Of a stretch of 64,000 bases of DNA, positions 41,044-59,182 are shown one piece after another. How positions within the stretch are numbered: position 1 is the stretch's first letter; every line of letters begins with the position of its first letter. Both the position numbers and the translations under genes were made by a program. The notes beneath the pieces are model-generated. The model saw only the letters and a list, made by a program, of their open reading frames with translations. It ran no database searches and was not told the origin of the DNA. The DNA comes from Maribacter algarum (ex Zhang et al. 2020) (lineage in GTDB: Bacteria; Bacteroidota; Bacteroidia; Flavobacteriales; Flavobacteriaceae): positions 62,001 through 126,000 of the forward strand of contig NZ_VATY01000002.1 of NCBI RefSeq assembly GCF_005885635.1, given 5' to 3'.

Positions 41044-41082
41044 AATTTCTAATTTGCATATTGCTATTTCGAAGCAGTGGCT

Positions 41083-44000
41083 ATGCAGAAAAAGAAAACG
41101 GAAAAGACGATTTGTTCCTATTGTGGTGTGGGTTGCGGTATTGAAGTATCTATTGATACCAAGGGTACGATAACGGTTGAGGGTGATGCTGATTACCCGA
41201 CGAACAAAGGAATGCTTTGCTCGAAAGGGCGCAACCTCAATTATGTCGCACAAGATACCAGTGACCGTATTTTACACCCTGAAATGCGCTGGAGTAGAAA
41301 CCACCCCCTTCAAAAAGTGCCGTGGGATACGGCTTTCGAGCGCGCTGCCGCCGTTTTTAAAAGCATTATTGCCAAACATGGCCCTGATAGTGTAGGTTTC
41401 TATGTGTCCGGTCAATGTTTGACGGAGGAATATTACCTCGCGAATAAGATTATCAAAGGTTTTATCGGAGCGAATAATATTGATACCAACTCCCGTTTGT
41501 GTATGAGTTCGGCGGTAGTAGGTTATAAAAAGACGCTGGGAGAGGATTCCGTACCGATTTCTTATGCCGATATTGAATTGGCGGATACTTTTTTAATAGC
41601 AGGTGCCAACCCTGCATGGTGTCATCCGATATTATATCGTCGTTTGGAGCAACGCAAAGCAGATAATCCCGAAGTAAAGGTTATTGTAGTTGACCCACGA
41701 AAAACGCAAACAGCCGCAGCGGCTGATTTGCATTTGCAAATACTACCGGGTACTGATGTGATTCTGTTCAATGCTATTGCCCGTTGGTTGATAGAGAGAC
41801 GAAAAATCGATAAAAATTTTATAAAGAAACATACGGTGAATTTTGAAGCGGTCAAAGAAATGGCCTTTTCGCTTTCTATTCGGAAAGCGGCTGAAAAGTG
41901 TGGTATTCCTGCTTCTGAAATCCGTAAAGCAGCGCAGTATATTGGTGAAGCTAGTAAGCTTTTGAGTATGTGGACGATGGGACTCAATCAGAGTGTGATT
42001 GGGGTTTCCAAAAATGTATCCCTATTAAACATTTCCCTGTTAACAGGTCAAATCGGAAAGCCCGGTTGCGGTCCCTTTTCCCTTACAGGACAACCTAATG
42101 CGATGGGAGGTCGTGAAGTAGGAGGGATGGCGAATCTATTGGCAGCACATAAAGATTTGGGCAATCCCATCCATAGAAAAGAAGTATCCGATTTTTGGGG
42201 TGGTAAAGAAATCCAAGCAGAACCCGGTTACACCGCCACTGAAATGTTCGATGCCTTAGAAAAAGGAAAACTAAAAGCCATTTGGATTATCTGTACCAAC
42301 CCTGCCGTAAGTATGCCCAACGTACACAAAGTGGAACGAGCATTAAAAAATGCGGCTTTTGTAGTAGTACAAGATATTTCCCATAACTCAGAAACAACAA
42401 AATTTGCAGATTTACTGCTGCCGGCAGCCGGCTGGTTGGAGAAAGAGGGAACGATGACCAACTCCGAAAGGCGTATCAGTTATTTGCCCAAAGTAATTGA
42501 CCCACCTGGAGAGGCTTTACCCGATGTAGAAATTTTGTGGCGCTTTGCGCAAGCAATGGGTTTTAAAGGTTTTGACTATAAGAATGCCAGCGAAGTCTAT
42601 GACGAACATTGTCTGTTGACCAAAGGCACCAACATTGACATCTCTGGTCTCAATTATGAACGTTTGAAAAGCGAAGGTAGCTTTCAGTGGCCGGTGCCGC
42701 ATGCTACGCATCCGGGTACGCCAAGATTATTTACTGATTTTAATTTTCACACGAATGATAAAAAGGCGCATTTCAATGTTCCGCAAAGTTTATATAATTC
42801 ATCCGAAGAAACCGATGTCAACTTTCCTTTAATCCTAAATACAGGAAGGGTGCGTGACCAATGGCATACCCGAACCAAAACGGGTAAAGTAAAACGTCTT
42901 TCGACCCATATACCGCAGCCCTATCTTGAGATGAACAAGGTGGACGCCTATCTAAGAAAATTGAAAGATGGTGATATTGCCGTTATCAAAAGTCGTAGGG
43001 GTGAGGTGCAGGTGAAGGTAAACGTGACCAGCGATATTCGTGATGGTGTTGTTTTTCTACCTATGCATTGGGGCAAAGTATTGAACAATGATTTTGGCCG
43101 CGCCAATAACATTACGAATGATATCGTCGACCCTGTTTCCAAAGAACCCGATTTTAAATACTGTGCGGTTCAGGTCGAAAAGTTTGTGAAGCCAGAACAG
43201 AAAATAATAGTGATTGGCGCTGGCGCTGCATCGTATCGTTTTATACAATCCTATCGGGAGAAAAATCAGAAAGATGAACTACATGTATTTTCCAAAGAGA
43301 AAGACCCTTTTTACAATCGGGTTTTACTTCCGGAATATGTGAGTGATGAATTGTCATGGGAATCCCTAGAAAAACTTAAGCAAGGTGAACTGCAAAAGTT
43401 GCATGTAAATCTACATCCCGACATCGGAATAACAAACATTGATGAAACTGCAAAAAAGGTTACCGATACGAATGGCGATGAACATTCCTATGACCTATTG
43501 GTTATGGCTACAGGTAGCCGCGCATTCGTGCCCAGTGAAGTGAATATGGCTGTACCCGGTCGGTTTACCATGCGAGAACGCAGAGATGCCGATAAACTAA
43601 AGCACTACTTACAAGAAACCGGCTTAGTAGCTGAAGAGCAGCACGTTGTCATTGTAGGCGGTGGTCTATTGGGATTGGAACTCGCAGCCGCCTTAAAGAA
43701 AATAAACATCAACATCAGTATCGTACAACGGGCTCCCCGATTGATGGAGCGACAGTTAGATAATATAGCGAGCCGCCTATTGGCAGAGGATGTTGTTGAA
43801 CGTGGCATCAATATCTATTTTGATAACGAGGTGAGTACCGTTTTTGAAGAAAAAGAGAATCCGAATTCCCTGCTGGTTAATCTGAAAACGGGGCGGACCA
43901 TACAATGCAACGCTATTGTATATGCGATTGGTACGCGGCCCAATATCGAATTGGCAAAACGAGCGAATTTGAAAACGCGACGAGGAGTGGTGGTCAATTC

Positions 44001-44610
44001 GTATCTGCAGACAAGTATCCCTTCGATATATGCCCTAGGTGAAATTGCAGAGTTTGAAAACGCACTATTCGGCATCACATCTGCTGCGGAACAGCAGGCA
44101 GATATTGCCGCCAATTATATACTGGGAGATTTTAGCAGTATTTATAAGGGCTCTGTATTGATGAATATTCTAAAGTTCGAGAATCTGGATTTGTGTAGTA
44201 TCGGTATGGTGAACGCCCCAAAGGACGATAGTACTTATGAGGAAATTATTTTGATGGATGTCAGTAAGCGTTTCTATAAAAAATGTATTGTCAAAGATGA
44301 TACTTTGAAAGGAGCGATTCTGATGGGTGATAAAAATGAATTTGCGGAGTTCAAACGCCTTATCGAAGAAGAAATCGAACTTTCTGAAAAACGAAATGAA
44401 CTGTTGCGGGGAGCATTAAATACAGTTCCCCTAAAAGGAAAATTGCTTTGTTCGTGCAGTCAAGTAGGAGAGGGTAATGTATTGGATGCAATTACTGCTG
44501 GCTGTGATGATTTTATTAAACTCTGTTCAGAAACCGGAGCAGGTTTGGGCTGTGGTAGTTGCAAACCTGAAGTGAAGGCTTTGTTGGACGGTCAATTGGT
44601 TAACGCATAA
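41083..44610 (+). CDS. nasA: Assimilatory nitrate reductase fused to flavoprotein and BFD domain
   Basis: The start is the ATG at 41083; a GTG 6 bp upstream is possible. The 1175-residue protein begins with a [4Fe-4S] motif (CSYCGVGC, then CSKG). A molybdopterin oxidoreductase body runs to about residue 700 with NSRLCMSSAV, and its molybdopterin-binding C-terminal domain has NTGRVRDQWHTRTKTG. A second part (about 710-1090) is an FAD/NAD(P)H reductase with GAGAASYRF and GGGLLGLEL. The end is a BFD-like [2Fe-2S] domain (CSCSQVG and GCGSCKP). The fusion places the NAD(P)H-oxidising module of NasB on the catalytic subunit. It probably reduces nitrate to nitrite in the cytoplasm. Confidence 0.93.
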   Translation: MQKKKTEKTICSYCGVGCGIEVSIDTKGTITVEGDADYPTNKGMLCSKGRNLNYVAQDTSDRILHPEMRWSRNHPLQKVPWDTAFERAAAVFKSIIAKHGPDSVGFYVSGQCLTEEYYLANKIIKGFIGANNIDTNSRLCMSSAVVGYKKTLGEDSVPISYADIELADTFLIAGANPAWCHPILYRRLEQRKADNPEVKVIVVDPRKTQTAAAADLHLQILPGTDVILFNAIARWLIERRKIDKNFIKKHTVNFEAVKEMAFSLSIRKAAEKCGIPASEIRKAAQYIGEASKLLSMWTMGLNQSVIGVSKNVSLLNISLLTGQIGKPGCGPFSLTGQPNAMGGREVGGMANLLAAHKDLGNPIHRKEVSDFWGGKEIQAEPGYTATEMFDALEKGKLKAIWIICTNPAVSMPNVHKVERALKNAAFVVVQDISHNSETTKFADLLLPAAGWLEKEGTMTNSERRISYLPKVIDPPGEALPDVEILWRFAQAMGFKGFDYKNASEVYDEHCLLTKGTNIDISGLNYERLKSEGSFQWPVPHATHPGTPRLFTDFNFHTNDKKAHFNVPQSLYNSSEETDVNFPLILNTGRVRDQWHTRTKTGKVKRLSTHIPQPYLEMNKVDAYLRKLKDGDIAVIKSRRGEVQVKVNVTSDIRDGVVFLPMHWGKVLNNDFGRANNITNDIVDPVSKEPDFKYCAVQVEKFVKPEQKIIVIGAGAASYRFIQSYREKNQKDELHVFSKEKDPFYNRVLLPEYVSDELSWESLEKLKQGELQKLHVNLHPDIGITNIDETAKKVTDTNGDEHSYDLLVMATGSRAFVPSEVNMAVPGRFTMRERRDADKLKHYLQETGLVAEEQHVVIVGGGLLGLELAAALKKININISIVQRAPRLMERQLDNIASRLLAEDVVERGINIYFDNEVSTVFEEKENPNSLLVNLKTGRTIQCNAIVYAIGTRPNIELAKRANLKTRRGVVVNSYLQTSIPSIYALGEIAEFENALFGITSAAEQQADIAANYILGDFSSIYKGSVLMNILKFENLDLCSIGMVNAPKDDSTYEEIILMDVSKRFYKKCIVKDDTLKGAILMGDKNEFAEFKRLIEEEIELSEKRNELLRGALNTVPLKGKLLCSCSQVGEGNVLDAITAGCDDFIKLCSETGAGLGCGSCKPEVKALLDGQLVNA

Positions 44611-44613
44611 AAA

Positions 44614-46056
44614 ATGAACGACGATTTACATCGCATACTCATACGCGGAGGAGTAACCTCTCCAGGGGAATTGAAAGATGTTATTTCAATGCTGGAAACT
44701 GCAGGGTTGAAAGAAGTCAATTTTGGTTCGCGCCAAGATTTGCTTTTTCCCATTAACGCAGCTGATGAGGAACAATTGGAAAGTATTTCGCAATTCAATA
44801 CAGATATTATCGGAGAACGCAAGTATCAGAATATCGTTTGCAGTTATGTTTCGGCAGATATATTTGATATGACCTATTGGTTGAAAGGGTCCACCTATCT
44901 CTATATTCTTGAGGGGTTTGATTACAACCCCAAACTTAAAATCAATATCACGGACCCGAAACAACGCTTGGTACCTATTTTTAGTGGGGACCTGAATTTT
45001 GTGGCTTCAGAAAGTGAAGACTATTGGTATTTGAATGTCAAACTTCCCCATTGGGAGCGGTCAGGGTATTATCCCGTATTGATTTACACGTGGGATATCG
45101 CTAACATTTCCCAAGCTATTGAAACCATTTATGAGGATATTCAAGATGTAGAAGAGCTCTTTTTTGTACTCAGTAAAAAGTTGGATACGAATAACAAAGC
45201 CATTGAAAAAGAATTGAAAATAGAGTACATAACTTTCCCCTATTACGAGGGAATGAACCGCATGGGGATTGACCAATATTGGTTGGGCTTGTATTGGCGT
45301 AACAACAAATATGACCTCGCTTTTTTAAAGGAATTCTGTGGTTTCTGTTTGGACAACAGTATCGGTAAAATATGTATTACCCCATGGAAGTCCTTCATTG
45401 TAAAAGGAATAAAAAAAGACAGTCGCTTAGAATTAGAACGCTTTTTAGGTCAATGGGGAATCAATGTGCGCCACTCCCAATTGGAGATGAATTGGCATGT
45501 ACCTGTAGATGATGCTGAGGCACTGGAGCTGAAAAAATTCTTAGTCCGTAGTTTTGACCAAAATGATATTAGCACATACGGATTAACTTTCGGAATTAGT
45601 AACGATGTCGGTAAACGTTCTCATTTTGCTTCTGTGATTATTGAAAAGAATGCGCCCCCAGCGATTGTAAAAGACTTCGAAGTTCGACCAACCTATAATG
45701 TGCTCCACTTTGAAAACTTTGACCCCAATACTCAAAAATACATCGCCTATGCTCAAGATGTGGATAAAATAGAACTCCCGGGACTGTTGATGGAACTCAG
45801 TAAAAAGTACTTTGCCCAATTGGGTAAATCGACAACCAAAGAAGAACCTGTCAAGAACAAAAACGAAAAACAAACCCAGAAGGTCTATCAATGTAAATCT
45901 TGTTTCACTATATATGACAAATTGTATGGCGATGCTAAAGCGGGAGTATCCGCGGGAACCATTTTTAAAGATTTAAGCGAATCGTATCAATGTCCGGTTT
46001 GTAATTCTCCAAAGGATAATTTTGAGAAAGTAGAGTTAGAAGTCAATAGTTTTTAG
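44614..46056 (+). CDS. Sulfite/nitrite reductase-like protein with C-terminal rubredoxin
   Basis: This 480-residue protein starts 3 bp after the nitrate reductase stop. Residues 1-70 (LIRGGVTSPGELKDVISMLE, then VNFGSRQDLLFP) match the ferredoxin-like half-domain of nitrite and sulfite reductases; more such regions follow. The four-Cys siroheme/[4Fe-4S] signature is absent, so it is unlikely to be a reductase. The last 55 residues form a rubredoxin with CKSC and CPVC iron ligands. It may shuttle electrons to the nitrate reductase or assist cofactor delivery; this is inferred. Confidence 0.82.
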   Translation: MNDDLHRILIRGGVTSPGELKDVISMLETAGLKEVNFGSRQDLLFPINAADEEQLESISQFNTDIIGERKYQNIVCSYVSADIFDMTYWLKGSTYLYILEGFDYNPKLKINITDPKQRLVPIFSGDLNFVASESEDYWYLNVKLPHWERSGYYPVLIYTWDIANISQAIETIYEDIQDVEELFFVLSKKLDTNNKAIEKELKIEYITFPYYEGMNRMGIDQYWLGLYWRNNKYDLAFLKEFCGFCLDNSIGKICITPWKSFIVKGIKKDSRLELERFLGQWGINVRHSQLEMNWHVPVDDAEALELKKFLVRSFDQNDISTYGLTFGISNDVGKRSHFASVIIEKNAPPAIVKDFEVRPTYNVLHFENFDPNTQKYIAYAQDVDKIELPGLLMELSKKYFAQLGKSTTKEEPVKNKNEKQTQKVYQCKSCFTIYDKLYGDAKAGVSAGTIFKDLSESYQCPVCNSPKDNFEKVELEVNSF

Positions 46057-47161: not shown

Positions 47162-48313
47162 ATGACACAATCTTTAGCCAATCATTTTCAAGGTCCCATT
47201 CCTAATGTTTTTGACGAGGTACATGCCTTTTGGATTGCAGGAGGCAGCTGCGATGGATGTTCTATTGCTACCGTAGGGGCTACAAGTCCATCTGTGGAAA
47301 ATCTCTTAAATGGAACGATTCCAGGAGCGGCAAAAGTAATTTTACACCACCCGGTTTTAGCGGTCAATGCAGGCGAAGCATTTATAGAACCGTTTAGGCT
47401 AGCCGCCAAAGGAGAGCTTGGTGCTCCATTTGTAGTACTGTGCGAAGGCTCAATTATGGATGAAAGTTTGGCAGCCGAAACAGGCGGTTATTGGTCAGGA
47501 CTTGGAGCTGATGAGGACGAAAATGGAGATCCACAGCCCATTCCTTCCTCCAGTTGGGTTACCCGAATGTCAGTACATGCCGCGGCAGTAATAGCAGTAG
47601 GTACTTGTGCAACTTGGGGAGGTGTTCCAGCCGCAGCGAATAATCCCACCAACGCGGCAAGCGTGATGGATCTATTAGGAGAGGATTATCGAAGTATTCT
47701 AGGATTACCAGTTGTAAATATACCAGGATGTGCACCACAAGGAGATAATATTACAGAGACAATTGCCGCCGTACTTTTATTCTTAAACGGATTGGCTCCC
47801 CTCCCTGAATTTGATGAGCTCGGAAGACCTCAATGGTTATTTGATGAAACGGTACATAGAGGTTGTACGAGGGCAGGCTTTTACGAGGAAGGCACTTTTG
47901 CCGAAGAACATGGCGATAAAGAATGTCTTGTTGAAATTGGTTGTTGGGGTCCTGTTGTACAATGTAACATAAATAAAAGAGGAGCTATCAATAATGCTGG
48001 CGGATGTATGAATGTTGGTGCACCATGTATCGGTTGTACAATGCCAGGTTTTCCGGATAGCTTCGCGCCATTTTATAAAACACCTCCAGGAACCATGGTT
48101 TCTTCAAATATTTCTAGAGTAACCGGAACGGTTATTCGTAATTTGAGGGAAATGTCAATGGGTAATCTAAACCGAACCACAAAATGGGACAAAGATGGTC
48201 ATGTACCTTCAGGGTGGGGTCATGTTAAAGAACCTAATCTAGTAAAGAAGGTGGTAAAGTATGCGTATCAAAAAATGCAGTTTAGTGATAGCCCAAAACC
48301 AGGTTCCAAATAA
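47162..48313 (+). CDS. [NiFe]-hydrogenase small subunit
   Basis: A 383-residue electron-transfer subunit with three iron-sulfur clusters. Proximal ligands are Cys30 and Cys33 (SCDGCS), Cys149 (GTCATWGG) and Cys190 (PGCAPQ). Distal ligands are probably His232, Cys235, Cys255 and Cys261, with Cys268, Cys289 and Cys292 (CIGC) near the medial cluster. The pattern GCWGPVVQCN and CIGCTMPGFPD resembles the high-affinity group 1h/1l and 2a lineage. The actinobacterial 1h type has Asp at one proximal ligand, while all four are Cys here. There is no twin-arginine signal and no C-terminal helix, so the enzyme should stay in the cytoplasm. Confidence 0.93.
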   Translation: MTQSLANHFQGPIPNVFDEVHAFWIAGGSCDGCSIATVGATSPSVENLLNGTIPGAAKVILHHPVLAVNAGEAFIEPFRLAAKGELGAPFVVLCEGSIMDESLAAETGGYWSGLGADEDENGDPQPIPSSSWVTRMSVHAAAVIAVGTCATWGGVPAAANNPTNAASVMDLLGEDYRSILGLPVVNIPGCAPQGDNITETIAAVLLFLNGLAPLPEFDELGRPQWLFDETVHRGCTRAGFYEEGTFAEEHGDKECLVEIGCWGPVVQCNINKRGAINNAGGCMNVGAPCIGCTMPGFPDSFAPFYKTPPGTMVSSNISRVTGTVIRNLREMSMGNLNRTTKWDKDGHVPSGWGHVKEPNLVKKVVKYAYQKMQFSDSPKPGSK

Positions 48314-48324
48314 TAAGCATAGCA

Positions 48325-48600
48325 ATGGAAAACGAAACACTTTTTAACGAATGGTTAATCGGACTTGGATTGGTCTCATTAATTGTAGTGATTGCCGCAG
48401 TACTTTTGATATTGGTATTCCTAGCGGCAAAGCGAATCTTAAGATTGGCTGGATCTGCTTTGGAAATTGTTACTCAAATAAAAAATAATACGCTACCCAT
48501 TTGGGAATTGGAAACTACTAACAAGGTTGCAGTTGATATTCAAAATGAAGCGGAAGCAATTCAAGCACATGCTACCTTGGTAGCTGAAGCCTTGGAATAA
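48325..48600 (+). CDS. Small membrane protein 1 of the hydrogenase operon
   Basis: A 91-residue protein with one hydrophobic helix (about residues 10-34), positively charged residues just after it (KRILR), then an amphipathic region. Charge placement predicts the C-terminal part on the cytoplasmic side. The stretch NNTLP, then ELETTNKVAVDI, also appears in the next protein (NNTIHIP, then TKTNQVAGKI), so the two are related. It lies 11 bp after the small-subunit gene. Confidence 0.8.
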   Translation: MENETLFNEWLIGLGLVSLIVVIAAVLLILVFLAAKRILRLAGSALEIVTQIKNNTLPIWELETTNKVAVDIQNEAEAIQAHATLVAEALE

Positions 48601-48616
48601 TTAAGAGAATAAAATT

Positions 48617-48943
48617 ATGAGTACAGGAATACAGTTATGGATAATCTCTTTGATCATCGGCCTAGTAGTCATTGGCGTAGTGGCTTTTCTTCTCAGTTTG
48701 GTTAAGAAAACTGCCATTAAGATTGATAATACTGCTGCAGACATTTGGACGCAGGGAAAACTAACGGCAAACAATACGATTCATATCCCTTTGTTCTTGA
48801 CCAAAACGAACCAGGTGGCGGGTAAAATCCTAAAAGCCGCAGTGGCTATTGTTGGTGGTTCAAAAGCGATAAACCAGCATATTGAAGGTTGCCCGGGCTG
48901 TCCTCATTGTATCCTACAATCCTCTGAAAATAATGTCTTATGA
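48617..48943 (+). CDS. Small membrane protein 2 with C-terminal CxxCxxC motif
   Basis: This 108-residue protein repeats the plan of small membrane protein 1: an N-terminal helix (about residues 7-30), then KKTAIKID and an amphipathic part. Unlike the other four it ends with EGCPGCPHCIL, three cysteines in CxxCxxC spacing, which could bind a metal or iron-sulfur centre on the cytoplasmic side. Its end overlaps the next gene by 4 bp, so translation is coupled. Confidence 0.8.
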   Translation: MSTGIQLWIISLIIGLVVIGVVAFLLSLVKKTAIKIDNTAADIWTQGKLTANNTIHIPLFLTKTNQVAGKILKAAVAIVGGSKAINQHIEGCPGCPHCILQSSENNVL

Positions 48944-49230
48944 GCTTATTATTAATGGTTATTACAATTCTGGCGGTACTCCTTTTGGTTTATGTTTTGG
49001 TGCATTATCTGCGAGGAATCATCAAACTCTTAACCAGCATTGGTGGTAGTGGCTCTAGTTATTTGGCTAAATTAAGACTTGGTCTTAGAGCGATTGAAAC
49101 TGAAACCGGACACCTTCCTGTGCAAGTAACAAAATTGAATGGTGCCTTGACGGAAGTAGCAGGTGGACTTAAGGTGGTTGACGAGCAATTGGAGGAATCT
49201 ATAAACGCTGCAGTAAAACAAAAAGTTTAG
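48940..49230 (+). CDS. Small membrane protein 3 of the hydrogenase operon
   Basis: A 96-residue protein with a hydrophobic helix at about residues 2-25, followed by a Gly/Ser linker and a long amphipathic helix (LRLGLRAIETETGHLP, then LNGALTEVAGGLKVVDEQLEESI). The pattern NGAL-x5-GL-x2-VD-x2-L is shared with small membrane protein 5. It starts inside the end of gene 2 and ends one base before gene 4. Confidence 0.8.
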   Translation: MSLLLMVITILAVLLLVYVLVHYLRGIIKLLTSIGGSGSSYLAKLRLGLRAIETETGHLPVQVTKLNGALTEVAGGLKVVDEQLEESINAAVKQKV

Positions 49231-49231
49231 T

Positions 49232-49522
49232 ATGGAAGCTGTAAACATTTTATGGTTGATATTATTAGTAGTTACGGTACTTGTACTACCGTATCTAATA
49301 TACTTGTTACATAAAACTTGGCAGGCATCCAGATCCATAGAGCGATATTTTAAGGAAATGAAAGAAGCAGGTATTGGAATTGCAAACAATACAGAACATG
49401 TCAAAGCTTTAGATGATACTATAGGTGTCGCTTCAGGTATTTTAGGAGTTGCTGGATCTATAAATGAACATTCGGATACCTTAAAAACAACCTTAGCTGC
49501 CAGGGCTGAACAAATAAATTAG
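49232..49522 (+). CDS. Small membrane protein 4 of the hydrogenase operon
   Basis: A 96-residue protein with an N-terminal helix (about residues 5-26), a basic patch (HKTWQASRSIER) and an amphipathic helical end. ANNTEHVKALDDTIGVASGIL recalls both the NNT motif of proteins 1 and 2 and the GL/VD pattern of proteins 3 and 5. It begins 1 bp after gene 3 and ends 7 bp before gene 5. Confidence 0.8.
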   Translation: MEAVNILWLILLVVTVLVLPYLIYLLHKTWQASRSIERYFKEMKEAGIGIANNTEHVKALDDTIGVASGILGVAGSINEHSDTLKTTLAARAEQIN

Positions 49523-49529
49523 AAATTCA

Positions 49530-49805
49530 ATGGATTCGACGACACTATTTATAGCTACCTTAATTATCGTTACCTTGTTGGTTTTGGTATTGGTCATATA
49601 TCTGATATTGATTATCGTTGCCCTTAGAAGGGCTGGTACCCATTTGGAGGGTCTGGCAGGAGGGCTTCAAAAAATACAAGATGATACTGGACCCTTAGGG
49701 GAAAAAGTAGGTGTCATTAATGGTGCATTAGGACAACTCCACGGTGGATTATCTTCTGTAGATTCTCATTTAGTGGCCATTGCAAAAGTTTTAAAACTAG
49801 CCTGA
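49530..49805 (+). CDS. Small membrane protein 5 of the hydrogenase operon
   Basis: A 91-residue protein with a very hydrophobic N-terminal helix (about residues 5-31), then ALRRAG and an amphipathic region (LQKIQDDTGPLGEKVGVING, then ALGQLHGGLSSVDSHL) clearly related to protein 3. It lies 31 bp before the large-subunit gene, completing a run of five such genes between the two catalytic subunits. Confidence 0.8.
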   Translation: MDSTTLFIATLIIVTLLVLVLVIYLILIIVALRRAGTHLEGLAGGLQKIQDDTGPLGEKVGVINGALGQLHGGLSSVDSHLVAIAKVLKLA

Positions 49806-49836: not shown

Positions 49837-51711
49837 ATGTGCTTTAAAAATTTACCGATTGCATTTGATGATGAGGGAAACGCCTATTTAAAGGAAGGTC
49901 TTAAAGACCCATATGAGCACAAAGTGGTCGATTTAGGTGAAGAGCAAGAAGTCTTAAAAGGCTTGTTGGAACGCAACGGATTTATCAGAAATATCGACTA
50001 TGATCCGGTAACCCGGGTTGCCGGGGCGCTTGCTTTTCACAGCGTTGTTGACTTGGAAAAAAAGAAAGTATTGTCTACGAATTCCATGGCTACCCTATTT
50101 CGTGGTTATGAAGTAATTTTAAAAGGTAGAGACCCAAGAGATGCCGCTTATATAAGTAGTAGAGCCTGTGGAGTATGTGGTGGCGTGCACGCTACAACGG
50201 CAGCTTTGGCTATTGAAATGGCTTTGGATATCAAGCCACCACCTTTGGGCATTGTTATGCGTAATATTTTATTGGCAATTGAATACCTATACGATCATCC
50301 GCTACACCTTTTCTTGTTGGCCGGTCCTGATTATTCAGAAGAATTGGTTCGCGAGACTAATCCTGAACTAATAGATAAGGCAGCAGAAACTAAAGCTAAG
50401 AATAAGGATGTTCATGGTTATGATACCGTTTTGGATATCATGAAAGATTTGAACCCGCTTAAAGGCAAATTGTACCTAGAGGCATTGAGTATGACCCGTG
50501 TCGCAAGAGAAGCATACGTTTTAATCGGAGGTAAATATCCCCATCCCCAGTCGGTTGTGCCAGGCGGACTTTCGGTTACAGTTACTGCTTCAGTTCTTAA
50601 TGAAGTTTACAGTAGGTTGATTAAGTTTTTCGATTATAGCCAAAAGGTTACGGGGATTTGGGATGATGTATTTGATTTCTTCCTAGAAAGTAATCCCGAA
50701 TATGCGAAGTGTGGCATTCGACCCGCTACCATGATGGATACCGGAGTTTGGGACAGACCGGACCATTACGATGCCTCATTTGCGAATTGTGATAAATGGG
50801 GAGAAGCAAGATGGTCTACGCCAGGCGTTTTAGTTGATGGCGAGGTGGTGACAACAAAACTTACCGAATTGAACGCTGGTATAGAAGAATTTGTAGAACA
50901 TTCTTACTATGAAAAATGGGATGGACATCGTTTTAAGGAGGATGCTAATGGAATGCCTTTGAGTCCAAACCATCCTTGGAACAAGGAGACTATTCCGAAA
51001 CCAGGAAAGCAGAGTTGGAAAGATAGATACAGTTGGGATACTGCGCCTACTTGGGACAGAATGCCAATGGAAGCGGGTGCCTATACCAGAATGTATATGA
51101 CTGCAAAAGCACAAAAAGCGCCTGCTAGCAAATTTTTGGAAAATACAGGTACGAGTATGAAAATTAAAGTACCGAAGCATTTTTTACCTGAAAAAACCTT
51201 GGAATGGAAAATTCCAGAACACTGGAACGCTTTTGAGCGCAACAGAGCAAGGGCTTATTGTATACCTTATTCAGCGATGGTCGCCATGGAAAATTGGTTG
51301 CTTGCCATGGATCTCATCAAGAACGGAGAAACAAAGGTTAGTGTACCTTATGAAATTCCTAAAAAAGGAACACATATTGGATTTGGTGCATGGGGTGCCG
51401 GTAGAGGTTTCCTAACCCACCACCTTATAGTTGAAAATGGTGTCATCGAAAATTATCAAATTATCACTCCTTCTACATTGAATGCTGCGCCAAGAACCCC
51501 TTGGGGTGAAATGGGTCCGTATGAAGAAGCTGTACTTAATACACCCATTCTTGAAAAATTCGATAAACCTGAGGATTATAAGGGCATCGATATTCTAAGG
51601 GCTATCCGCAGTTTTGATCCGTGTATGCCTTGCACAACTCATATCATGGCCAAGGATTCAGATCATATGGTAACAAGAGAGGTAACGACCTGTGCCTGTG
51701 GTGTCGAATAA
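49837..51711 (+). CDS. [NiFe]-hydrogenase large subunit
   Basis: A 624-residue catalytic subunit. The N-terminal nickel ligands are Cys111 and Cys114 in RACGVCGGVH; the C-terminal ligands are Cys596 and Cys599 in DPCMPCTTH. After His602 there is a 22-residue extension ending CACGVE that a maturation protease would remove after nickel insertion. Overall similarity is to the O2-tolerant high-affinity 1h/1l and 2a groups. It oxidises H2 and passes electrons to the small subunit. The next gene overlaps its 3' end by 20 bp. Confidence 0.95.
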   Translation: MCFKNLPIAFDDEGNAYLKEGLKDPYEHKVVDLGEEQEVLKGLLERNGFIRNIDYDPVTRVAGALAFHSVVDLEKKKVLSTNSMATLFRGYEVILKGRDPRDAAYISSRACGVCGGVHATTAALAIEMALDIKPPPLGIVMRNILLAIEYLYDHPLHLFLLAGPDYSEELVRETNPELIDKAAETKAKNKDVHGYDTVLDIMKDLNPLKGKLYLEALSMTRVAREAYVLIGGKYPHPQSVVPGGLSVTVTASVLNEVYSRLIKFFDYSQKVTGIWDDVFDFFLESNPEYAKCGIRPATMMDTGVWDRPDHYDASFANCDKWGEARWSTPGVLVDGEVVTTKLTELNAGIEEFVEHSYYEKWDGHRFKEDANGMPLSPNHPWNKETIPKPGKQSWKDRYSWDTAPTWDRMPMEAGAYTRMYMTAKAQKAPASKFLENTGTSMKIKVPKHFLPEKTLEWKIPEHWNAFERNRARAYCIPYSAMVAMENWLLAMDLIKNGETKVSVPYEIPKKGTHIGFGAWGAGRGFLTHHLIVENGVIENYQIITPSTLNAAPRTPWGEMGPYEEAVLNTPILEKFDKPEDYKGIDILRAIRSFDPCMPCTTHIMAKDSDHMVTREVTTCACGVE

Positions 51712-52243
51712 TGTTCTAATTGGTACAGTTGGTTATCATCTATTGCGTAATCATTCTGTCGGCCCTATCTTGCTTCCGCAACTAAACGCAAAAGCTTGGA
51801 ATGAGCAAGTGAGCATTGAAGAAATGAACTGGGGCCCAATTGCCATTGTTCAATATTTTCAAACACTTGAGATTCCGTTTGATAGAGTTATCTTTTTAGT
51901 GGCATTGGAGAGACAAGAGCGAAAAATTGGTGATATCTCCGTTTATCAATGGTTGGGAAAACTACCTGATGAACAGCAAATTCAAGCTTGTGTAGGTGAT
52001 GCAGCGACGGGTGTAATTTCAGTTGAAAATCTACTTGTGATAGGTGAATTCTTCAAAATTTGGCCCAAAGAGGTGTTTTTAGTCGATGTTGAGCCCGGCC
52101 CGGAGCAGGCAGGTGAGCATCTAACTGATGAAGTAAAAGATAAGATTCCTGAAATTTTACGTATTTTAGAAGAGCTAACGCTGGATGGAGAAGTTTTGAT
52201 GGAAACTGAAAAGTTGCAAGGCGATACGCTATTCGAAGAGTAA
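51692..52243 (+). CDS. Hydrogenase maturation protease-like protein lacking nickel ligands
   Basis: This 183-residue protein has the fold pattern of HybD/HyaD proteases: NVLIGTVGYHLLRNHSVGPI at the start, a central FLVALERQERK strand, and VFLVDVEPGP near the end. The conserved acidic residue after GNxL is replaced by an N-H-S stretch, the central Asp of LVDA is Ala, and the usual SPH His region reads GDAATGVISVENLL. It therefore probably does not cut, and may act as a chaperone or scaffold. A GTG start is used; 51692, 51698 and 51701 are all possible. A normal protease is encoded at 53757. Confidence 0.7.
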   Translation: MPVVSNNVLIGTVGYHLLRNHSVGPILLPQLNAKAWNEQVSIEEMNWGPIAIVQYFQTLEIPFDRVIFLVALERQERKIGDISVYQWLGKLPDEQQIQACVGDAATGVISVENLLVIGEFFKIWPKEVFLVDVEPGPEQAGEHLTDEVKDKIPEILRILEELTLDGEVLMETEKLQGDTLFEE

Positions 52244-52247
52244 GAAT

Positions 52248-52649
52248 ATGAATGATAAAATAGAAGACAGCCCATTACGTTCCCTTTTTTGGAAAGATGA
52301 AATTCTTCAGGTGCTTTACTGGATGCGTGGTGAAGGTATTGGGTCAGAAGTTAGTTTACTCCAAATACTTCCCTTTTTAAATACTTCCTATCAAAATTTA
52401 GAGTACCACCTCAACAAAATCAAGGATGAGGGTTTACTTATTGGTGAAAAGAAAGATGGTACCATCCATTATCAATTATCGGAAACTGGCAAAAAACTAG
52501 GAGGACGTCAGTTTGCTGAGGCATTTCAAGGCATGCAAAAAGCGGGTCATGGTGAATGTGGTCCTGATTGCGAATTTTGTTATGGTACCGATGGTGTAAA
52601 GCTAGAAAATTGTGTTCATAATTGTGCTAGCAGTCCCCAATCAATATGA
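52248..52649 (+). CDS. Winged-helix protein with C-terminal Cys cluster
   Basis: A 133-residue protein. Residues 10-80 form a PadR/ArsR-like winged helix (FLNTSYQNLEYHLNKIKDEG, then KKDGTIHYQLSETGKKLGG). The C-terminal 30 residues carry GHGECGPDCEFCYGTDG and ENCVHNC: five Cys and two His that could hold a metal ion or iron-sulfur cluster. It may be a redox- or metal-responsive regulator of the operon, or a maturation factor. It overlaps the next gene by 4 bp. Confidence 0.7.
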   Translation: MNDKIEDSPLRSLFWKDEILQVLYWMRGEGIGSEVSLLQILPFLNTSYQNLEYHLNKIKDEGLLIGEKKDGTIHYQLSETGKKLGGRQFAEAFQGMQKAGHGECGPDCEFCYGTDGVKLENCVHNCASSPQSI

Positions 52650-52939
52650 GACCAATCCTATTCAATAATGTAGAGTTCAAAGAAATCATGGAGTATGTGC
52701 AAGAATTGGTGAAGCAAGCAGACACTATCCCTGACGAGGAAACTAAGGAACTTACAAAGGAAATATTGAAGTATTTTGATTTAATGCATCGTGAGCCACT
52801 ATCCCGAATGCTACAGGCAATAGAGAGCAGCTATCCTGACTTAAAAGACACTCTAAAACAAGACTATACCATAAATACTTTGTTGGAATTATATGATTTT
52901 GAGAATACAAACCTCCCGAATATTGAAAAAGAGACCTAA
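52646..52939 (+). CDS. Small helical protein, hydrogenase-associated NifU-like N-terminal domain
   Basis: A 97-residue helical protein. ILKYFDLMHREPLSRMLQAI and LLELYDFENTN recall the helical domain that precedes the NifU-like domain in proteins encoded with group 1h hydrogenases. The iron-sulfur NifU domain itself is absent. The similarity is from pattern memory and is modest. It is translationally coupled to the gene before it. Confidence 0.5.
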   Translation: MRPILFNNVEFKEIMEYVQELVKQADTIPDEETKELTKEILKYFDLMHREPLSRMLQAIESSYPDLKDTLKQDYTINTLLELYDFENTNLPNIEKET

Positions 52940-53744
52940 CGTATTTTTTATTTTAATAGTAAGCTTTCTCATATTGAGTTGTAAAAGAGAAGTCAAAGAA
53001 GAAGCTATAAAACCCAAACAGGTAAATCGTGAATTGAACCAAGCTGAAAAACTGGTCAATGAAGCCATAAATCATGCTGGGGGTATGGACAAATGGGCCT
53101 CCAAAAAAACGTTGACTTATACGAAAAATATTCAAAGCTATGATTCCATAGGCAACTTGATTCGGACTGTGGCGCAGGTACATAAGTACCAATTAAAACC
53201 TTCGTTTAAAGCGAATATGAGCTGGGAACAAGATGGGAACAAACATGAAATAGTCAATAATGGCAAGCAGTCATGGAAATTACTGAACGGGAAAATTCAA
53301 GATGACAAGGCTTCAGTAAATATTGCCTGGAATTCTTCATTCGGTTCTCAGTATATGGTAAGCATGCCATTTAAATTAAAAGCTCCCGGGACTATATTAA
53401 ACTATGAAGGGATTGATACATTATCAAATAATCGAATAGTACATAAGCTCAAGGTTACCTATGAAAAGGGAGCTGGAAGCGCAGGAGGAATGCACACTTG
53501 GTATTACTTTTTAAATAAGGATAATTATCAATTTGAGGCAAATTTTTTAGACCACGGAAAGGGATTCTCATATACTGATTATGAGACCTTTATAAAAGTT
53601 GACGGCATAGAAATTACCAAGGAAAGAAAAAGCTATGCTTCTAATGCAATTATGGAAACTACTTACCTAAAAACAATTTACAGTAATACCAATATTAAGT
53701 TTGATAAGGAATTCCCCGAAAACCTGTTTCAGGTCGATAATTAG
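52893..53744 (+). CDS. Lipoprotein with LolA-like beta fold, paralogue of the membrane protein at 54333
   Basis: A 283-residue protein whose signal (RPNVFFILIVSFLILSC) ends in a lipobox. It overlaps the previous gene by 47 bp; a TTG at 52923 is a possible shorter start. The domain begins with AGGMDKW and contains SMPFKLK and VDGIEITKERK. The same pattern (AGGLDTW, SMPFKLK, VDGITFSHRW) occurs in the protein at 54333, so they are paralogues. The alternating strands suggest a half-barrel of the LolA/LppX type that binds lipid or another hydrophobic ligand. The function is unknown. Confidence 0.7.
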   Translation: MILRIQTSRILKKRPNVFFILIVSFLILSCKREVKEEAIKPKQVNRELNQAEKLVNEAINHAGGMDKWASKKTLTYTKNIQSYDSIGNLIRTVAQVHKYQLKPSFKANMSWEQDGNKHEIVNNGKQSWKLLNGKIQDDKASVNIAWNSSFGSQYMVSMPFKLKAPGTILNYEGIDTLSNNRIVHKLKVTYEKGAGSAGGMHTWYYFLNKDNYQFEANFLDHGKGFSYTDYETFIKVDGIEITKERKSYASNAIMETTYLKTIYSNTNIKFDKEFPENLFQVDN

Positions 53745-53756
53745 AACTTTTGAAAA

Positions 53757-54251
53757 GTGCAGAAAAAAATCCTCATTGCGGGTGTTGGAAATGAATTAAA
53801 GCAAGATGATGCTTTTGGGATTGAATTTGCTAAAATATTTAGACCCAAGGTCGCTCACTTAGATAACATCATGGTCATGGAAGTGGGTATTGGAGGTATT
53901 CATTTGGTGCAAGAGTTGCACGCAAGTTATGATATTTTGGTTCTAGTAGATGCTGTGGCTTGGGGGGAAGAAGCCGGACATATCTATTTTCGGGAAATGG
54001 AAAAGGTGTCTGATATTGAGGAGATGCCTGTTTTTGAAAAACGGGTTTTTTTGGCGGACATGCATTACACGAACCCCATTAGGGCTTTAATGCTGGCGAA
54101 AGCGTTGAAGGTATTGCCTGCTGAAGTTTATATTCTGGGTTGCGAAGCGGCAGAACATGATGATTTCGCAATAGGAATGACAACCGTGGTCACCGAAGCA
54201 ATTCCAAAAGCTATAGATAAATTGCTAAGCTGGTTGTCCATAAAAATTTAG
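53757..54251 (+). CDS. Hydrogenase maturation protease
   Basis: A 164-residue HupD/HybD-type endopeptidase starting with GTG. GVGNELKQDDAFGIEF carries the first acidic nickel ligand, LVDAV the second, and DMHYTNP the His region. It should remove the 22-residue tail of the large subunit after nickel insertion. It lies between the two LolA-like genes in the hydrogenase operon. Confidence 0.88.
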   Translation: MQKKILIAGVGNELKQDDAFGIEFAKIFRPKVAHLDNIMVMEVGIGGIHLVQELHASYDILVLVDAVAWGEEAGHIYFREMEKVSDIEEMPVFEKRVFLADMHYTNPIRALMLAKALKVLPAEVYILGCEAAEHDDFAIGMTTVVTEAIPKAIDKLLSWLSIKI

Positions 54252-54332: not shown

Positions 54333-55316
54333 ATGAATCAGGAAGTTAAGTCACCCCAGGGCCCTAATAAAGTTGAGAAGAAATCCGAAGAAAAAATTCC
54401 TTGGTGGTTTAATCTGCAGGTAAAAGATTTGGTAAAACCCATTACCATAAAACGAATGCAATTATTATCTGCAGGGGCACTGCTACTTGCTTTAATTGCT
54501 GGTGGATTTTATGCCTGGGAAAACTTCTTGAGGGAGCCTACAGGAGCTGAATTTGTTGATGAAATTGTGGATGCTGCAGGTGGTCTTGATACATGGAAAG
54601 GTATTGAACATGGACAGTTTACACGCACGCATAATTTGTATGACGATTCGGGAGAATTGTTAAAGTCTACTGAGGAGACTTTTTATTTTAAAAGAGGAAA
54701 AGAAGGCTTAAAGCTACAAGTAAAATCTGTTGGCTCTGACGATAGCGAAGTAGTTGTAGGTAAAGATGACGAAGGATTTTGGGCAACAAAAGACAACCAA
54801 ACGGTGGACCCAATGATTGCAGCTAAGGATGAAGGAATGATGTGCGATTCTAAATTTTGCGACCCGCAATGTGCTTCTTCGATGGCATTTTTTAGATTTT
54901 CAATGCCATTCAAGCTAAAAGATAGTGGCGTGAATGCTAGTTTGGCATCAACGGGATTCAATATTGCCGAGTTGAATTTGTTAGGTGGTTCGGGAAAAGA
55001 ACCGACTTTGCTTGATATTTCGTATGACCGTACGGTAGGGAAGGATAGCTGGCGATTTTATGTTGACCCTCAGGATAAATTGATTCACAAAGTTGAATAT
55101 TACAATAAGTCAGATAAAGGCGAAATTCGTCCAGAAGAAATTTATTGGACAGATCATAAAACCGTTGACGGAATAACATTTAGCCACCGGTGGACAAGGT
55201 ATTGGCCTAACGGCAAGGTTATGGATGAATATGTTTATTCAGATGTAAATTTAGATAGTGAATTGCCAGACGAATTTTTCAATAGAAGAAATTCTTTGGG
55301 AATTGCAGACCGATAA
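54333..55316 (+). CDS. Membrane-anchored LolA-like protein of the hydrogenase operon
   Basis: A 327-residue protein with a charged N-terminal tail of about 45 residues, one transmembrane helix (LLSAGALLLALIAGGFYAW, about residues 44-62) and a C-terminal beta-rich domain paralogous to the lipoprotein at 52893. Charge placement predicts the domain in the periplasm. It has an extra cysteine cluster, CDSKFCDPQC, around residue 172. It is the last gene of the forward operon; its stop is 7 bp from the convergent ATPase gene, with no terminator hairpin between. Confidence 0.72.
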   Translation: MNQEVKSPQGPNKVEKKSEEKIPWWFNLQVKDLVKPITIKRMQLLSAGALLLALIAGGFYAWENFLREPTGAEFVDEIVDAAGGLDTWKGIEHGQFTRTHNLYDDSGELLKSTEETFYFKRGKEGLKLQVKSVGSDDSEVVVGKDDEGFWATKDNQTVDPMIAAKDEGMMCDSKFCDPQCASSMAFFRFSMPFKLKDSGVNASLASTGFNIAELNLLGGSGKEPTLLDISYDRTVGKDSWRFYVDPQDKLIHKVEYYNKSDKGEIRPEEIYWTDHKTVDGITFSHRWTRYWPNGKVMDEYVYSDVNLDSELPDEFFNRRNSLGIADR

Positions 55317-55323
55317 AATAGGG

Positions 55324-56094
55324 TTATCCAGCGAGGATAGAATCACGTAATTTTTCTAAAGCTTTTACTACTTTAGCCTCAGGGTCGAAATCCATAACAG
55401 ACTTTCCTTTTAGATCGGCTGCGGTTACCTGTTCGTCAAACGGCACAAACACCGCGATTGGGAGATTGATTTTAGCACAGTACTCGCGTATGGCCATTTC
55501 ATCTTCCTTGGTGCGTACCTTATTGGCAATGGCCTCTACTTGACCAATACCCAGTTGTTCTGCCATTTCAGCAAATCGTGAGGCTGCTTCCAAAGACCTA
55601 TAGTAAGGCTCAACAACGGTATAGATTTTATCTACGTGCTTTGAAGTACCCCTTGTCATATGCTCTAGAGATGCCTCTGTATCCAAAACCATAACCTGAC
55701 CTTCTTCAGAGGTCATTGCAGCATTGACCAATTCACGAACTACGGTATTAGGACCGCACAAGCAACCGGTACCTGCTTGTTCGGGTTTACCTACCATAAG
55801 CAAGGTTACATTATCCGTTACCTTTTGCCCATAGGTTTCCAAAACTTCTTGAAAAGGAATCTTCACCTGAAATTTCCATTTACCATCTTCGGTCTCGACT
55901 CTCTCAATAATGTCAGTACTCAAATTTGGAGGACCAGCGTCCGATTTGTCAATACCTAACACAATCGAAAGGTTCGGGTTTGGGTCACCATCAATAGCGA
56001 GTACTTGGTCGCCTTTGGCTCCAAAAATCCTACAAAGTGTTCCACTTATTGTGGTTTTACCAACTCCGCCCTTGCCAGCTATTGCTATCTTCAT
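55324..56094 (-). CDS. CooC-like nickel-insertion ATPase
   Basis: A 256-residue P-loop ATPase of the MinD/ArsA group. GKGGVGKTT is the deviant Walker A, AIDGDPNPN follows strand 2, and VLDTEASLEH is the Walker B region. TGCLCGPNTVVREL has the CxC motif that binds nickel in CooC, the maturation ATPase of CO dehydrogenase. No CO dehydrogenase gene is present, and HypA and HypB were not found in the window. It probably supplies nickel to this hydrogenase, a role inferred from the operon. Confidence 0.82.
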   Translation of the reverse strand: MKIAIAGKGGVGKTTISGTLCRIFGAKGDQVLAIDGDPNPNLSIVLGIDKSDAGPPNLSTDIIERVETEDGKWKFQVKIPFQEVLETYGQKVTDNVTLLMVGKPEQAGTGCLCGPNTVVRELVNAAMTSEEGQVMVLDTEASLEHMTRGTSKHVDKIYTVVEPYYRSLEAASRFAEMAEQLGIGQVEAIANKVRTKEDEMAIREYCAKINLPIAVFVPFDEQVTAADLKGKSVMDFDPEAKVVKALEKLRDSILAG

Positions 56095-57061: not shown

Positions 57062-59182
57062 TTAATGCTTTCCTGCCACGCCCAAACGAATGATTAGTTG
57101 CGCATTTATACTGCGGCCCGGAGCAAGGAAACGGGTTTGATTTCCAGGGGTACCCCTAAAAACATGACTCTGATACTCTTCATTGACAAGATTATCCACA
57201 GAAAGCACAAACTTCGAATAGGGAAAATTTGAAAATAAATTATGAAGATTAAACCCGGCACTTAGGTTAAAAAGATTATAACTGTCCGTCTCGCGTTCAG
57301 TAGGAGCAGGCTTATCTTGTTCACCAACAATAACGGTCTCAAATCGACCGAAAAAAGTATCGCTATTATTTCGAATTTGAAAACCAAGTATATTTTGATT
57401 GGCTGGCATAAAGGCCAAATCATCATTTGTAATCTCATTTTTACCCCTGATATAGGAACCGGTCAAGAAAACACTAGACAATTTCCCTATAGTGTGACTC
57501 AGTTGATACTCAAGGCCGGTGAGTTTGGCTTTACCTATCGCCTGATTTTGAATATTAGGTGTGCCTTGAAAATCCACACTTACGGGCACATAAAGATCAT
57601 TGACAAAGTTTTGGTAAAAATTTAGATTGAAGTCAAAATTGTCACTATCATAGGCATAACCCAATTCATAAAAAATTCCTTTTTCTGGACCGAGATCTGG
57701 GTTGGGAATTACACCATCTGCAAAATTGTATTTGGAAAATAAATCAGGTCCTCTAAAAGAATTCGCCAAATTGACAGAGAAATCTGATTTCTCTGAAGCG
57801 TGAAATTTTGCTCCTATGTTACCTGTTAAAGCACTATTATTATCCGAACTATTATCGGCATTATATAAACTAGCTATAGCAGGAATAAAAAATGGTTCGC
57901 TTTCAATTTCGTTCTTTACGTTGTCATAACGAAGTGCGATTAGTAAATCAACGGCATCACTGACCTTCCACTCTTCCACTGCAAAAATACCTATTGATGT
58001 AGCGTAGCTATCTGGCTGTATTTGCCCTGGTGGTGGCGCGACCTGATTTACCTGTACCCCCATAGGGTTAAAAATATCGACGACTAGTTCTCTTTTGGTT
58101 CCGAAACGATGCTCCCTGAGATAATCTGCGCCTACCGTCAACTTAGAGTTTTCTGCTAAGCGAAGTGCAGTGAAGGCTTTGATGCCTCCAAAATCCACAT
58201 CAACATCCAGATTAACATCAATTCTTCGATTAACGTTCATTGTATTCGGAAAACGCACGTTGGTTACCTGATCTATATGCAACCGTTGTTGTTTGAAGTA
58301 TGCACTAAATCCTACTTCTTCAATTACACTTGATAGCTTTTTACCGGTATAATTAAAGTTGTAACCCGTCTGCTCATCTGGCGAAAATAATCGGACGCGA
58401 ATTGGTGGCCCAGGTGCCCCAAGTCCTCCTGGAAAACCAACATCCTCATTTTTGAAAATTTTACCGCTGAATTCAAAACGATGATTTTCTGCTGGAGAAT
58501 ATCCAATGTTCCAATCAAAGTAATTGGATTTAAATTGACTGTTTGGAATTTCGCCACCGGGAGTATCAGTATTACTAGCATCGCGAATACCGCCACCTAT
58601 CAAAAAATCAAAACCATTACCTCTTCCTTCAACTTCAAGTCGCCCTCTGGAATAGGAATTCACAGATTGATAACCCCCATACAGACTGGCACCTACCTTA
58701 AAGTCTTTTCCATACCCATTTTCCGCCTTTCTGGTAATGACATTAACAAGTCCGCTTACGGCATCACTTCCCCAGAATGCTGAAGCTGGACCCTTAATAA
58801 CCTCAACCCTTTCTACTTGCCAAGGATCTATTAAAGCATAACTTCTTATACGACCTCCTACAAATGAATTCCCATCAATAAGTATGGGAGCCCTTTCTCT
58901 TGATAAACCTCTAATAATGGGAGTACTTGTAATACCACCATCGTTTTGAACAACAACACCGGGTATGTATTTTAAAATTTCCGTAGCCGACGGCGGTTGC
59001 GTTTCTAGGATAGCTCGTTGATTGACAACAACTACGTTAACGGGTAAATTCTTAAGCGGAGAAGAGGATCTTAGTGCGGTAACTTCGACTGGAGCTATTT
59101 TTATAGTGTCTTGAGTCTGCTCTTGTCCATAAAAAAAGGTGTGTACGAGCACAAATAGTGCGAGAATAGTGTAGTTTTTCAT
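57062..59182 (-). CDS. TonB-dependent outer-membrane receptor, candidate nickel transporter
   Basis: A 706-residue receptor with a signal peptide ending YGQ, a plug domain (NVVVVNQRAILETQPPSATE, then IRGLSRERAPILIDG and VERVEVIKGPASAFWGSDAV) and a beta barrel. The barrel ends with an aromatic-containing strand. The CarboxypepD-like N-terminal domain of SusC proteins is absent, so it is more like metal or cofactor receptors. Being inside the hyp operon between hypE and hypC, it most likely imports nickel or a nickel chelate; this is inference. Confidence 0.85.
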   Translation of the reverse strand: MKNYTILALFVLVHTFFYGQEQTQDTIKIAPVEVTALRSSSPLKNLPVNVVVVNQRAILETQPPSATEILKYIPGVVVQNDGGITSTPIIRGLSRERAPILIDGNSFVGGRIRSYALIDPWQVERVEVIKGPASAFWGSDAVSGLVNVITRKAENGYGKDFKVGASLYGGYQSVNSYSRGRLEVEGRGNGFDFLIGGGIRDASNTDTPGGEIPNSQFKSNYFDWNIGYSPAENHRFEFSGKIFKNEDVGFPGGLGAPGPPIRVRLFSPDEQTGYNFNYTGKKLSSVIEEVGFSAYFKQQRLHIDQVTNVRFPNTMNVNRRIDVNLDVDVDFGGIKAFTALRLAENSKLTVGADYLREHRFGTKRELVVDIFNPMGVQVNQVAPPPGQIQPDSYATSIGIFAVEEWKVSDAVDLLIALRYDNVKNEIESEPFFIPAIASLYNADNSSDNNSALTGNIGAKFHASEKSDFSVNLANSFRGPDLFSKYNFADGVIPNPDLGPEKGIFYELGYAYDSDNFDFNLNFYQNFVNDLYVPVSVDFQGTPNIQNQAIGKAKLTGLEYQLSHTIGKLSSVFLTGSYIRGKNEITNDDLAFMPANQNILGFQIRNNSDTFFGRFETVIVGEQDKPAPTERETDSYNLFNLSAGFNLHNLFSNFPYSKFVLSVDNLVNEEYQSHVFRGTPGNQTRFLAPGRSINAQLIIRLGVAGKH

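Follow-up and report, generated by a model that had tools for sequence, protein, structure and literature searches.

Introduction

Periplasmic uptake hydrogenases of the HyaC/HupC type carry a Tat signal and a C-terminal anchor helix and are accompanied by a cytochrome b gene. The group 2a enzyme Huc is, like the group 1l enzyme Hyl, cytoplasmic, has neither Tat signal nor cytochrome b, and works with a dedicated helical membrane-associated partner, as described in passages of PMC10017518. This partner, HucM, is a single protein of 188 aa whose gene immediately precedes hucS; it is present in four copies, with its N-terminal part in the enzyme core and its C-terminal tube peripheral on the membrane (PMC10017518). 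In the group 1m cluster, two single-helix proteins of 82–92 aa occur with a HybD peptidase and a CooC-type ATPase; its subunit genes are adjacent, unlike those of group 1l, to which we liken it by description only (passages of PMC9561532).

H2 oxidation by group 1l enzymes is reported to be widespread (passages of PMC7677003 and PMC10305171). The enzymes were predicted for almost all community members of a Gobi desert soil (PMC7677003), and among the hydrogenase subgroups of subantarctic sea-water samples theirs was the dominant one (PMC10305171). The published Hyl locus has five short predicted membrane proteins encoded between the small- and large-subunit genes, which PMC9561532 names HylTM1–5, citing Ortiz et al. 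2021. Among the matches listed in our literature search, from which bioRxiv and most subscription papers fell outside, HylTM appeared in PMC9561532 only; the searched literature offered no function for HylTM1–5 and no account of electron transfer from group 1l to respiration. None of the group 1l papers listed is a HylTM study, judged by title and the start of the abstract. The five-gene arrangement and the HylTM1–5 names are thus already known.

Results

A group 1l hydrogenase locus in Maribacter algarum

The window analysed here is a 64 kb stretch of the Maribacter algarum genome. Its hydrogenase locus contains the following genes, where A and B denote two protein classes described below.

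47162..48313, + strand: HylS, hydrogenase small subunit (Pfam PF14720 and PF01058)
48325..48600, + strand: HylTM1, class A, 91 aa (gene order, profile comparison, tree)
48617..48943, + strand: HylTM2, class A, 108 aa, C-terminal CxxCxxC (gene order, profile comparison)
48940..49230, + strand: HylTM3, class B, 96 aa, with the near-invariant stretch SYLAKLRLGLRAIExET (SYLAKLRLGLRAIE)
49232..49522, + strand: HylTM4, class A, 96 aa (gene order, profile comparison, tree)
49530..49805, + strand: HylTM5, class B, 91 aa (gene order, profile comparison, tree)
49837..51711, + strand: HylL, hydrogenase large subunit (Pfam PF00374)
51692..52243, + strand: maturation-protease-like gene, 183 aa (TIGR00072 below cut-off, 31.8 of 47.45 bits)
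52248..52649, + strand: winged-helix-like protein, 133 aa, Cys-rich C-terminus (weak HTH matches only)
53757..54251, + strand: HycI-type hydrogenase maturation protease (PF01750, E 6.1e-15)
55324..56094, − strand: P-loop ATPase, presumably of the CooC type (PF01656, E 6.2e-18; Pfam name CbiA)

The HylTM2 and HylTM3 genes overlap by 4 bases, and the remaining gaps from HylS to HylL measure 1–31 bases. These coordinates and lengths agree with the initial annotation of the window, which had described five tightly spaced or overlapping genes of 91–108 codons between the subunit genes; as the layout is in print (PMC9561532), that annotation had rediscovered a published arrangement. HylL is the only PF00374 place in its own 5.1 Mb genome, and hydrogenase maturation genes lie downstream of it. 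The 183-aa maturation-protease-like gene was matched at most 1l-type loci having downstream sequence, and tblastn matched the 133-aa winged-helix-like protein at the majority of 1l-type loci, including loci of Chloroflexota.

For both subunits, the nearest solved relatives come from the group 1h enzyme of Cupriavidus necator: chain 5aa5_A for HylS (E 1.4e-103) and chain 5aa5_C for HylL (E 8.7e-136), 5aa5 being identified as the Cupriavidus group 1h enzyme in PMC9561532. Both NiFe-site CxxC motifs of HylL are intact (RACGVCGG and DPCMPC). In the HylL tree, the window sequence falls into one clade with Marinovum algicola FF3, apart from the 1h-type rows, and the FF3 enzyme is named group 1l in PMC10305171. 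Judged by large-subunit clade, TM genes and CxxC motifs, the window enzyme is a group 1l (Hyl) [NiFe]-hydrogenase. The HydDB classifier is unable to separate 1h from 1l, according to passages of PMC11519504.

Two features of HylS mark 1l-type enzymes. At the proximal-cluster motif, CxGC was found in 42/42 1l-type rows and in 0/31 1h-type rows, which have CxGD there; we take this position to ligate the proximal cluster. Likewise, 42/42 and 0/31 rows, respectively, are extended at the C-terminus by a tail carrying P-[SNT]-[GP]-W (both counts omit L029 and L038 as incomplete). The 1h-type loci thus differ from 1l at all 31 in having CxGD for CxGC, no HylS tail and no TM genes. In a HylS model of mean pLDDT 59 and pTM 0.63, the tail is a low-confidence helix at residues 360–373. 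Because the extension always occurs alongside TM genes here, it is the best candidate for a docking site.

Hyl also differs from HyaC/HupC-type uptake hydrogenases, having no Tat signal, C-terminal anchor helix or cytochrome b gene, as the initial annotation had proposed. The first 40 residues of HylS contain no RR motif, its C-terminus is not hydrophobic, and neither HylS nor HylL contains a membrane helix. The 64 kb window holds a single ORF of at least 100 aa with at least three hydrophobic helices; since it lies about 10 kb off (35839–36939), there is no cytochrome b gene nearby.

Further genes surround the locus. A TonB-dependent-receptor-like gene, named by eye (57062–59182), lies between hyp genes; its homologues occur near the hyl locus in several Bacteroidota, and it perhaps serves nickel uptake. 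Two DUF6503 proteins are encoded beside the hydrogenase (52893–53744 and 54333–55316), the second with a sub-threshold LolA_like match, and perhaps bind a lipid or quinone. We rejected this pair as a core part, as among surveyed 1l-type loci it was matched in Bacteroidota only. Upstream, the region 41077–46056 encodes a fusion of a molybdopterin oxidoreductase with an NAD(P)-linked flavoprotein and a BFD-like domain, and after it a protein in which a sub-threshold NIR_SIR_ferr match is fused to rubredoxin; these genes probably serve assimilatory nitrate reduction, in unusual fusions.

HylTM1–5 have one membrane helix each and form two classes

A single hydrophobic helix lies near the N-terminus of each HylTM protein (2.7–3.6 as the best mean over 19 residues). 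Comparing the 15 residues on either side of the helix core, K+R were commoner on the C-terminal side in 35/35, 32/34, 29/35, 35/35 and 34/35 distinct orthologues of TM1–5, respectively, and nearly all rows have few positive residues ahead of the helix. According to the positive-inside rule, this excess indicates an N-out/C-in topology, which would place the tails on the same cytoplasmic side as the hydrogenase. Alpha-periodic hydrophobicity at p≤0.05 was detected in 13/38, 27/60, 26/54, 21/50 and 19/42 tail windows of TM1–5 (5% expected), a rough test as the windows overlap. The N-terminal helix, the positive residues following it and the amphipathic cytoplasmic tail of the initial annotation are all borne out by these data.

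HylTM2 carries CxxCxxC in 35/37 rows from several phyla; it is missing from TM2 of L033 and L035, two Roseomonas loci, and in Chloroflexota loci with four genes the first encodes no Cys at all (7/7). No Pfam family could be assigned to the HylTM proteins. DUF948 (PF06103) scored 17.4 of 37.2 bits with the window TM5 and HemY_N (PF07219) 21.9 of 31 bits with the window TM4, both below the gathering cut-off; matches at E≤0.01 were obtained with DUF948 in 5/13 class B members and with HemY_N in 2/15 class A members. We also rejected kinship as an explanation of the class B matches to designed and viral fusion-protein coiled coils, which we interpret as heptad likeness.

When HMM searches were iterated at loosening thresholds, the class A paralogues all merged, as did those of class B. 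We therefore assigned orthology by gene order and trees, and kinship by profile–profile comparison. By this comparison, TM1, TM2 and TM4 form class A, and TM3 and TM5 form class B. Full-length HHalign probabilities were 98.2% for TM1–TM2, 97.9% for TM1–TM4 and TM2–TM4, and 98.6% for TM3–TM5. With the membrane helix removed, they remained 94–96% within classes (A 94–96%, TM3/TM5 96%) and were at most 6% between them. Between-class full-length values of 93% (TM1–TM5), 73% (TM2–TM5) and 3–46% (the remaining four pairs) can be inflated by the shared membrane helix. The initial annotation had ascribed the set to duplication, pairing TM1 with TM2 and TM3 with TM5. Both pairs stand, with the correction that the omitted TM4 belongs with TM1 and TM2 (tails 94–96%).

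An [N/D/E]-T pair was aligned in all three between-class alignments inspected, with the following Asn in two of them. Among distinct rows, T occupies this turn column in 35/35, 34/34, 35/35, 32/35 and 24/35 sequences of TM1–5 (otherwise S). Since the turn lines up between the classes, both likely derive from a single ancestral protomer consisting of a membrane helix, 20–30 residues, [N/D/E]-T and a second helix. In trees, TM1–5 formed one clade of 34 rows apiece (SH-aLRT 97, 99, 95, 96 and 94), with few columns and many inner forks unresolved; L012, L029, L032 and L041 were omitted as near-copies or broken, and L090 was added. Five distinct proteins have thus been maintained separately across the sampled phyla, which fits five separate roles better than spare copies.

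TM genes accompany every complete 1l-type locus sampled

HylTM genes were found in 45/45 complete 1l-type intervals from the small- to the large-subunit gene, 39 with five genes and 6 with four. The collection scan and related genome searches gave 37 AABAB intervals, including the window and L007, and 2 ABAB intervals; the Chloroflexota set added 1 AABAB and 4 ABAB intervals, and L127 one further AABAB. The 37 AABAB intervals hold 36 distinct TM sets, as L031 equals L032. The initial annotation had asked whether TM genes occur with other group 1l-like hydrogenases and had named as a refuting case hydrogenases of the same clade that work without them. For two-subunit enzymes the outcome favours the initial annotation: 45/45 complete intervals had TM genes, and 0/45 lacked them. 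Conversely, TM models matched at E 0.01 in 0/31 1h-type loci (stretches of 3.9–18 kb; 31 of the 32 places fetched have both subunits), where '1h-type' is a label by similarity and not a database call.

The four-gene form occurred in Chloroflexota only, and Chloroflexota L052 and L090 have five genes. The tree places its first gene with TM2 at a support of 91, although this gene carries motifs of both TM1 and TM2. By model scores, the second gene is nearer TM5 in L091–L093, not in L089, and the last is nearer TM3 in L089 and L091–L093, which would suggest an altered order of the B genes; the B tree puts both on the TM3 side and did not confirm this order.

TM proteins were also confined to these loci: in 14/14 genomes with 1l loci, all class A and B profile matches (E≤0.01) lay at a hyl locus. 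One genome (G1198) has two complete, diverged hyl loci, each AABAB, L127 on contig C9 and L031 on contig C39; its second TM set, on the other contig, is accompanied by its own S, L and maturation genes. Taken across phyla, the comparison suggests that the HylTM genes are one duplicated protein family tied to the 1l-type enzyme.

Scanning the genome collection with the HylL alignment gave 50 loci, of which we class 41 as 1l-type, 6 as lone large subunits and 3 as archaeal and more distant. HylL searches at E≤1e-100 found 4/397 genomes of the host family, its own included, and 1/395 of the phylum, its own; at E≤1e-20, 1/14 genomes of the genus was found, again its own. In 400 Chloroflexota genomes, there were 41 HylL places in 40 genomes, 8 of them 1l-type and 33 1h-type by score and identity; 38/41 were fetched, L052 and L043 came from the earlier set, and G856 (1h-type) was omitted. 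Counted although damaged or cut were L029 (HylS in two frames, short TM2), L038 (HylS at a contig end) and L053 (HylL cut by a contig end), whereas L008, L010, L019, L043 and L094, which start or end inside the cluster, were uncounted. As the loci were sampled by similarity to the window HylL, the set contains neither group 1m nor 1l enzymes of Actinobacteria, of which the collection scan returned none.

Lone large subunits nested in group 1l have no TM genes

Six proteobacterial relatives of the large subunit stand alone, at the following places (locus:positions).

L046:8296-10146, lone large subunit
L047:8743-10707, lone large subunit
L048:1998-3968, lone large subunit
L049:9037-10887, lone large subunit
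L050:8896-10737, lone large subunit
L055:8938-10698, lone large subunit

They fall inside 1l, beside alphaproteobacterial enzymes (SH-aLRT 100), a placement to be read with caution because of long branches. A constraint grouping all TM-bearing rows without the lone large subunits was rejected (AU p 0.0044; 66/82 rows). These proteins have S-G-I-C in place of the C-G-V-C of HylL and keep the C-terminal CMxC. TM genes were absent near them on both strands and from 6/6 genomes, with the window's own genome as the positive control. A small subunit was found in 0/6 of these genomes, in a search that has no built-in positive control and whose query finds the small subunits of 1l loci. Their contigs carry hyp genes; the short L048 gave a HypF match only. 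Since small subunit, TM genes and an active-site Cys are jointly missing, the TM proteins appear tied to the electron-transferring form of the enzyme. The lone large subunits are possibly a new use of the hydrogenase large subunit.

Discussion

HylTM1–5 probably hold the hydrogenase on the cell membrane, letting its electrons enter respiration. The membrane stalk posed in the initial annotation was a fair inference, and the explanation that we favour, and consider rather likely, is that HylTM1–5 are integral membrane subunits of the enzyme and together make up a hetero-oligomeric stalk, by which cytoplasmic HylSL is docked to the membrane to reduce quinone. The five helices would assemble into a parallel hetero-oligomer of three A and two B protomers (two A and two B in some Chloroflexota), with the cytoplasmic helical tails building the stalk. 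Together with the extra C-terminal tail of HylS, the stalk would dock soluble HylSL on the inner face of the membrane, and this docking would replace three elements that periplasmic uptake hydrogenases rely on, namely Tat signal, anchor helix and cytochrome b. Electrons would then pass from the last FeS cluster of HylS to a quinone in or near the helix bundle; the quinone might either ascend through a hydrophobic tube, the route proposed for Huc, or be reduced close to the membrane surface.

Supporting the stalk, 45/45 complete 1l-type intervals from S to L contain HylTM genes, versus 0/31 1h-type loci. The N-out/C-in topology, the lack of an alternative membrane anchor nearby, co-occurrence with the HylS tail, separate clades for TM1–5 and the restriction of all TM matches to hyl loci (14/14 genomes) point the same way, as do lone large subunits that have neither a small subunit nor a TM homologue. 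Structure prediction gave no support for or against the bundle: a natural-order read-through model of four L025 proteins reached a mean pLDDT of 39 and a pTM of 0.29 (5 alignment rows), and a parallel bundle would be disfavoured by the short linkers of this construct. Also counting against the stalk, two 1l-bearing isolates, including Marinovum algicola FF3, showed no substantial H2 uptake in culture according to passages of PMC10305171; the TM set of the FF3 locus (L030) is intact.

A special case of the stalk would be a Huc-like quinone conduit, in which the tails form a hollow tube with a hydrophobic lining that leads menaquinone from the membrane to the electron exit of HylS. We regard this as possible but doubtful. 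The tails are amphipathic, a single protomer containing the common turn probably gave rise to all five, class B shows a heptad pattern like that of designed coiled-coil bundles, and Huc itself provides a precedent (passages of PMC10017518). However, the four-protein model was of very low confidence (pLDDT 39), and a membrane-embedded stalk could reduce quinone without a tube. HucM also differs from HylTM, whose five genes of 91–108 aa lie downstream of HylS and each encode an N-terminal membrane helix, and no HucM chain appeared in the 18 class A PDB matches or the best 60 of the 110 class B matches, its inclusion being assumed. It is an equally tentative idea that Hyl embodies an independent second answer to the problem solved by Huc, namely an integral-membrane hetero-oligomeric quinone conduit of five (or four) copies docked through the HylS tail; here, just as speculatively, the protomers would have diverged from one single-helix ancestor, with [N/D/E]-T at a common point of the tail.

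The co-occurrence that supports the stalk fits maturation factors too, and the TM proteins might instead be assembly or membrane-targeting factors that stay outside the finished enzyme. Maturation genes are abundant at the locus, the TM2 Cys cluster resembles that of some metal chaperones, and lone large subunits without a small subunit likewise have no TM genes. Against this, 1h-type enzymes with similar subunits have no TM genes, five distinct conserved orthologues sit between the subunit genes, and the membrane enzyme would be left with no other anchor, making this account unlikely. Still less likely is a supercomplex scaffold linking the hydrogenase to a respiratory complex such as a terminal oxidase: conserved surfaces, including the near-invariant TM3 stretch, could touch further partners, but the identified genes of the operon include no oxidase, and similar motifs recur across hosts from several phyla, whose oxidases probably differ. 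The CxxCxxC of TM2, conserved across several phyla (35/37 rows), could bind an FeS cluster or other metal and relay electrons from HylS to the membrane, which we consider highly improbable. Its absence from L033, L035 and 7/7 first genes of four-gene loci indicates that CxxCxxC is dispensable there and not obligatory, and on this ground we rejected an obligatory FeS relay through TM2.

Four points are added here to the published arrangement and do not feature in the passages of PMC9561532: the division into classes A and B, the form with four genes, the tail of HylS and the lineage of joint loss. In our sample, 1l-type and 1h-type loci are told apart in every case by the HylTM genes, CxGC and the HylS tail, which are useful as markers because HydDB cannot make this distinction (passages of PMC11519504). 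The two classes, the tail, the four-gene form and the joint loss in turn lead to testable predictions of which parts of the enzyme touch and which are needed.
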